Part shown: positions 52,499 through 52,608 of the stretch, piece after piece
Layout of the letters: each line of letters begins with the position of its first letter
How positions within the stretch are numbered: position 1 is the stretch's first letter
Assembly: GCF_014262665.1 (NCBI RefSeq)
Contig: NZ_CP046883.1
Span: forward strand, 1,984,001 to 2,048,000
Length of the DNA: 64,000 bases
Direction of reading: 5' to 3'
Source: Corynebacterium anserum
GTDB lineage: Bacteria; Actinomycetota; Actinomycetes; Mycobacteriales; Mycobacteriaceae
Program-made: the position numbers and the translations under genes
The notes under the pieces: generated by a model
The model's input: only the letters and a program-made list of their open reading frames with translations
What the model was told of the DNA's origin: nothing
Database searches by the model: none

Positions 52499-52608
52499 CG
52501 GCCTTCCCGGCACTAGCGCGTCACTATGGCTGGGGCGGCCTTCCCGGCACTAGCGGGTCACTATGGCTGGGGCGTCACTTCGATGGGTTTCCCGGCACTA
52601 GCGCATCA
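52499..52608. repeat. 37-bp tandem repeat covering the fadH stop codon
   Basis: Unit 1 is 52499-52535 and unit 2 is 52536-52572; they differ at one base. A partial third unit around 52587-52608 carries TTTCCCGGCACTAGCGC, which contains the stop codon of the minus-strand fadH gene (52598-52600). The near-identity of units 1 and 2 shows that one duplication is recent. Confidence 0.85.

Follow-up and report, generated by a model that had tools for sequence, protein, structure and literature searches.

Short tandem duplications between genes and across gene ends in Corynebacterium anserum and related genomes

Tandem repeats at the fadH locus

The fadH-like gene and an acyl-CoA oxidase-like gene form a convergent pair in the window, by which we mean the whole stretch of 64,000 nucleotides of Corynebacterium anserum DNA that was analyzed. 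The gap between them holds, in this order, a hairpin, a 37-bp duplication and the fadH stop codon, and the features of the locus are the following:

about 52462-52491, no strand: hairpin (13-bp stem) in the gap where the two genes converge, obtained by folding and terminator-like by shape only
52499-52574, minus strand: 37-bp unit in 2.1 tandem copies, located 3′ of fadH in the convergent spacer (TRF, 97% matches)
52589-52608, minus strand: degenerate partial third copy over the fadH stop codon (20-bp match at 95%)
52598-54685, minus strand: fadH-like gene of 695 aa, 2,4-dienoyl-CoA reductase/OYE family (Pfam and NCBIfam matches, ORF list)

The initial annotation had described fadH as ending inside a near-identical 37-bp repeat. 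The repeat is real, but its two near-identical copies sit just 3′ of the gene, and only the degenerate third copy overlaps the stop codon (52598-52600). A consensus terminator scan gave no T-run terminator at the hairpin (52462-52491). According to TRF and the sequence, the copies differ from each other, and the third one is older and degenerate. Such independent substitutions argue against assembly artefacts, as does the fact that arrays of this kind also occur in several further genomes of the genus; although the evidence comes from one assembly, an artefactual origin of the duplications is scarcely credible.

A search of the genome located the 37-bp unit at a single site, with other matches being weak. 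Its assignment to a MIRU-like dispersed repeat family was rejected, as the unit is confined to fadH. In the sister genome G010, whose FadH shares 87% amino-acid identity with that of the window, the gap separating fadH from the acyl-CoA oxidase gene spans about 1.1 kb and contains two other genes; no tandem repeat was found in this gap, and a search for the 37-bp unit gave no good match in G010. A comparison of L005:553-1382 of G010 with window positions 52446-52598 reveals ORFs of 184 aa and 78 aa, YdcF-like and PspC-like by eye, that are missing from the window site, and a search of G000 with the 184-aa protein returned nothing at E ≤ 1e-3.

Repeats at other gene ends of the window

Further repeats at gene ends in the window vary in strength and in their position relative to the stop codon:

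4470-4591, minus strand: degenerate array that includes the allB stop and is built of four ~28-bp sub-repeats, equal to two ~60-bp units (TRF, 71-73% matches; sequence)
42430-42457, plus strand: weak 14-bp duplication that spans the stop codon of a ScfR-type regulator gene (TRF score 42)
45968-46000, plus strand: 17-bp duplication just 3′ of an esterase (mycolyltransferase-like) gene (TRF 93%; sequence; Pfam PF00756)
61840-61921, minus strand: weak repeat at the end of topA, with two imperfect ~22-bp copies at 60-bp spacing (sequence)

The allB gene, identified through NCBIfam TIGR03178, has its stop at 4546-4548, within the degenerate array, as had been claimed for a 60-bp repeat at this end. 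Both the fadH and the allB arrays consist, by TRF, of at least two adjacent head-to-tail copies with a unit of 10-100 bp, as in a bacterial minisatellite or tandem-duplication locus. Between allB and the allantoicase gene (4440-4591), the four degenerate ~28-bp sub-repeats resemble TTGGTTGAGYGRCCAYAATTA and could be operator sites, not passive repeats.

The remaining cases listed by the initial annotation are weaker. The 17-bp duplication at the mycolyltransferase end is present, but it begins 7 bp beyond the stop of this plus-strand gene, which ends at 45961. At topA, for which a degenerate 60-bp repeat had been proposed, a ~22-bp word does recur at 60-bp spacing (18/22 positions matching, counted by eye), but it is weak and went unreported by TRF at score 40; the 12-bp repeats at nearby 61980-62040 constitute an in-frame Lys/Ala-rich coding tail. 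The supposed tandem case at the ureG/ureD junction amounts to an ~11-bp word recurring about 48 bp apart, in non-tandem arrangement. The duplication in the ScfR-type gene lies under the score threshold of 50 used for statistics. Separately, a 24-bp unit in 3.3 copies (25999-26078) lies near the predicted start of an ORF without a Pfam match and is absent at the aligned sister site. A plasmid search gave no match.

Distribution of arrays across the genome

To place these loci in a genomic context, 40 spread 20-kb stretches were combined with the window, covering 864 kb of the 2.209-Mb genome (39%). Genes were predicted with a self-trained hexamer gene caller (702 genes, 85% coding), and TRF arrays were counted at a score of at least 50 and a period of at least 9. 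The sample contains 93 arrays, of which 40 are intergenic, 38 fall within genes, 9 overlap stops and 6 overlap starts. Thus 55 of the 93 lie outside gene bodies, where uniform placement would put about 20, while those inside genes have a period divisible by three in 36 of 38 cases. Spacers resampled by dinucleotide yield about 0.3 arrays for this genome sample, against the 55 real ones outside gene bodies, and 0.3-1 array per sample across the genome samples; since resampling gives almost none, the arrays as a class are not due to chance. Identities outside gene bodies range from 70 to 100%, and this spread bears out the earlier suggestion that the copies are of different ages and reflect a continuing process.

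Placement at stop and start codons

Within 100 bp of a stop, 53 arrays were found versus 17.4 expected under uniform placement, an enrichment that the initial annotation had predicted; it arises mostly because arrays lie outside gene bodies. A fair null is therefore random placement restricted to positions outside gene bodies, which we applied to 176 arrays pooled from five genomes of the genus, with p values that assume independent arrays and stem from several comparisons. Under this null, the proximity signal shrinks to a modest rise (104 versus 85.5 arrays within 100 bp of a stop, p = 0.0065), mirrored by a depletion at starts. Overlap with the stop codon itself is not enriched (34 versus 36.3 expected, p = 0.71), nor was any enrichment detected at four thresholds and in three age classes. 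The proposed process acting at gene 3′ ends and covering stop codons is thus not supported, and targeting of stop codons was rejected on the basis of this placement test. Overlap with start codons is depleted (13 versus 34.9 expected, p = 7e-6), again consistently over the four thresholds, a value that may be distorted by start positions, which a simple caller places with less certainty than stops. As a duplication overlapping a stop spares the upstream protein and one overlapping a start or the signals preceding it may not, this pattern fits general duplication combined with purifying selection.

Arrays between convergent genes

In the five genomes, the arrays are unevenly shared among spacer types: convergent spacers hold 56 versus 32.8 expected (1.7-fold, p = 2.5e-5), codirectional spacers 84 versus 105, and divergent spacers 36 versus 38. 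In the youngest class the convergent excess has already reached 1.8-fold, and no growth with age was seen, which lends no support to selection growing with age as its cause. Either selection acting very early or a genuine bias of mutation towards such pairs could produce this early excess.

A model in which transcription collisions or terminator events favor the formation of duplications at convergent pairs and at the 3′ ends of genes would account for the convergent excess, its early appearance and the modest rise within 100 bp of stops. However, such a model sits poorly with the missing enrichment of stop overlap and with the other spacer types: codirectional spacers, which also contain a 3′ end, are depleted, and divergent spacers, which lack one, are at expectation. 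Moreover, relaxed constraint in promoter-less spacers predicts the same convergent excess, so that the earlier idea of collision sites is matched in its prediction and yet not singled out by it. Slippage at terminators, the other half of that idea, found no backing: the folding of repeat units is close to that of matched spacer controls (mean rank 0.474, se 0.025) and not clearly more hairpin-like, so a terminator-based mechanism gains no support, and hairpin-driven duplication was rejected. Overall, a collision or terminator origin appears unlikely. The convergent excess is the sole part of the originally proposed mechanism that survives, with low probability; in its specific form, which we consider improbable, convergent pairs in these corynebacterial genomes would be hot spots where short tandem duplications newly arise without Ku and mostly without homology, because transcription collides or forks are arrested between the two genes. 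At one site, L034:15035-15088, the duplicated unit itself resembles a terminator hairpin (AACCCTCTGAGGGGTT).

Duplication junctions and Ku

Among the 33 perfect duplications in two copies, 23 show a junction excess of at most 1 nt, as do most simulated blunt duplications, and the fadH duplication has a junction microhomology of just 2 nt. As most recent duplications thus show no more end microhomology than blunt ones, the primary event probably does not depend on homology. Junction homology of at least 4 nt, seen in 21% of perfect duplications versus 2% of simulated ones, speaks for classical replication slippage between short direct repeats that already existed; the 23 duplications with at most 1 nt, and the 2 nt at fadH, nevertheless make it rather unlikely that slippage generates most of them. 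A literature search on short duplications with microhomology in bacteria yielded nothing useful.

Searches for Ku (PF02735) gave no match in the array-rich genomes G000, G010, G015 and G033, while G016, G019 and G020, where arrays are fewer, do carry Ku. With Ku absent from the array-rich genomes, the arrays do not stem from classical bacterial end joining, and Ku-dependent NHEJ duplication was rejected on this ground.

Comparison with sister species and the genus

Array density outside genes ranges from about 43 to 88 per 100 kb of noncoding sequence in G000, G010, G015 and G033, versus 0-6 in G004, G014 and G016, a provisional difference given the small samples of 100 kb taken from each low-density genome. 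Most spacers have diverged too far between the sister species to be aligned, and the polarity of single duplications is therefore demonstrated at few sites; at one of these, L043:10284-10331, a stop is covered by a 23-bp duplication that its aligned counterpart in the sister lacks.

The same comparison bears on whether some arrays are functional and selectively kept, for example as repeated operator sites (as in the allB-alc spacer) or as processing signals. In favor of this, the allB array keeps four recognizable ~28-bp sub-repeats despite 27-29% divergence and lies just upstream of the allantoicase gene. On the other hand, the units seen at different loci are unrelated to one another, and wherever flanks could be matched, none of the arrays turned out to occupy the same place in the sister species, which leaves a functional role for some arrays with little likelihood.

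Origin and retention of the arrays

The repeats are quite probably the product of a general, mostly homology-independent process of local duplication that is filtered by selection, with survivors located mainly outside coding sequence. Independent short tandem duplications, with units of about 12-60 bp and usually two copies, would arise across the whole chromosome, presumably through a homology-independent event such as template switching at the fork or fill-in of staggered breaks; slippage from one short direct repeat to another would have produced or lengthened a minority (about 20%), and Ku-dependent end joining would be unnecessary. Duplications would then survive mainly outside coding sequence, those persisting in genes having nearly always units divisible by three, and duplications over start codons or 5′ regions would be purged. 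Those lying after or across a stop would leave the protein unchanged and hence be retained, subsequently decaying by point mutation. The distribution, the frame constraint, the spread of ages, the single occurrence of the fadH unit and its lack in the sister are observed directly, while we infer both the molecular event and the role of selection as a filter. Three points count against this overall reading: the 1.8-fold convergent excess in the youngest class, the 21% of perfect duplications with at least 4 nt of microhomology, and the divergence of spacers between the sister species, which hides the polarity of most arrays.

Stop codons are covered no more than by chance placement outside gene bodies, and the finding is thus largely ordinary: the repeats are ordinary short duplications that this bacterium and some of its relatives carry in gene gaps. 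A striking pattern, such as repeats over stops, can follow from where duplications are tolerated and not from where they arise. Three points are worth retaining: array density apparently differs a great deal from species to species within a genus, junctions in the genomes lacking Ku are mostly free of homology, and convergent pairs show a modest excess.

Comparison with known tandem repeats

A comparable distribution was described for the VNTRs of Yersinia pestis, where 48 of 88 loci are intergenic, 24 fall within ORFs and have unit lengths divisible by three, 6 overlap a start and 10 overlap a stop; loci close to the 5′ end of a gene are less diverse, and some stop-overlapping loci are of low diversity as well (PMC3689786). 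Like these, the arrays described here are mostly intergenic, have units divisible by three within ORFs and in some cases cover starts or stops. They differ in being mostly two-copy, with units that are often longer, and, while the copy number of Y. pestis VNTRs varies between strains (PMC3689786), the present arrays are known from one genome per species. The tandem repeats of Burkholderia pseudomallei are likewise mostly located between genes (about 70% intergenic), but they consist mainly of 6-9 bp motifs in 4-10 copies, many of which recur elsewhere in the genome (PMC1853098). Within the same bacterial order, the mycobacterial MIRU-VNTR loci also contain tandem units between genes; MIRUs, however, form one dispersed family at about 41 places (PMC2734929), whereas the fadH unit occupies one place only.
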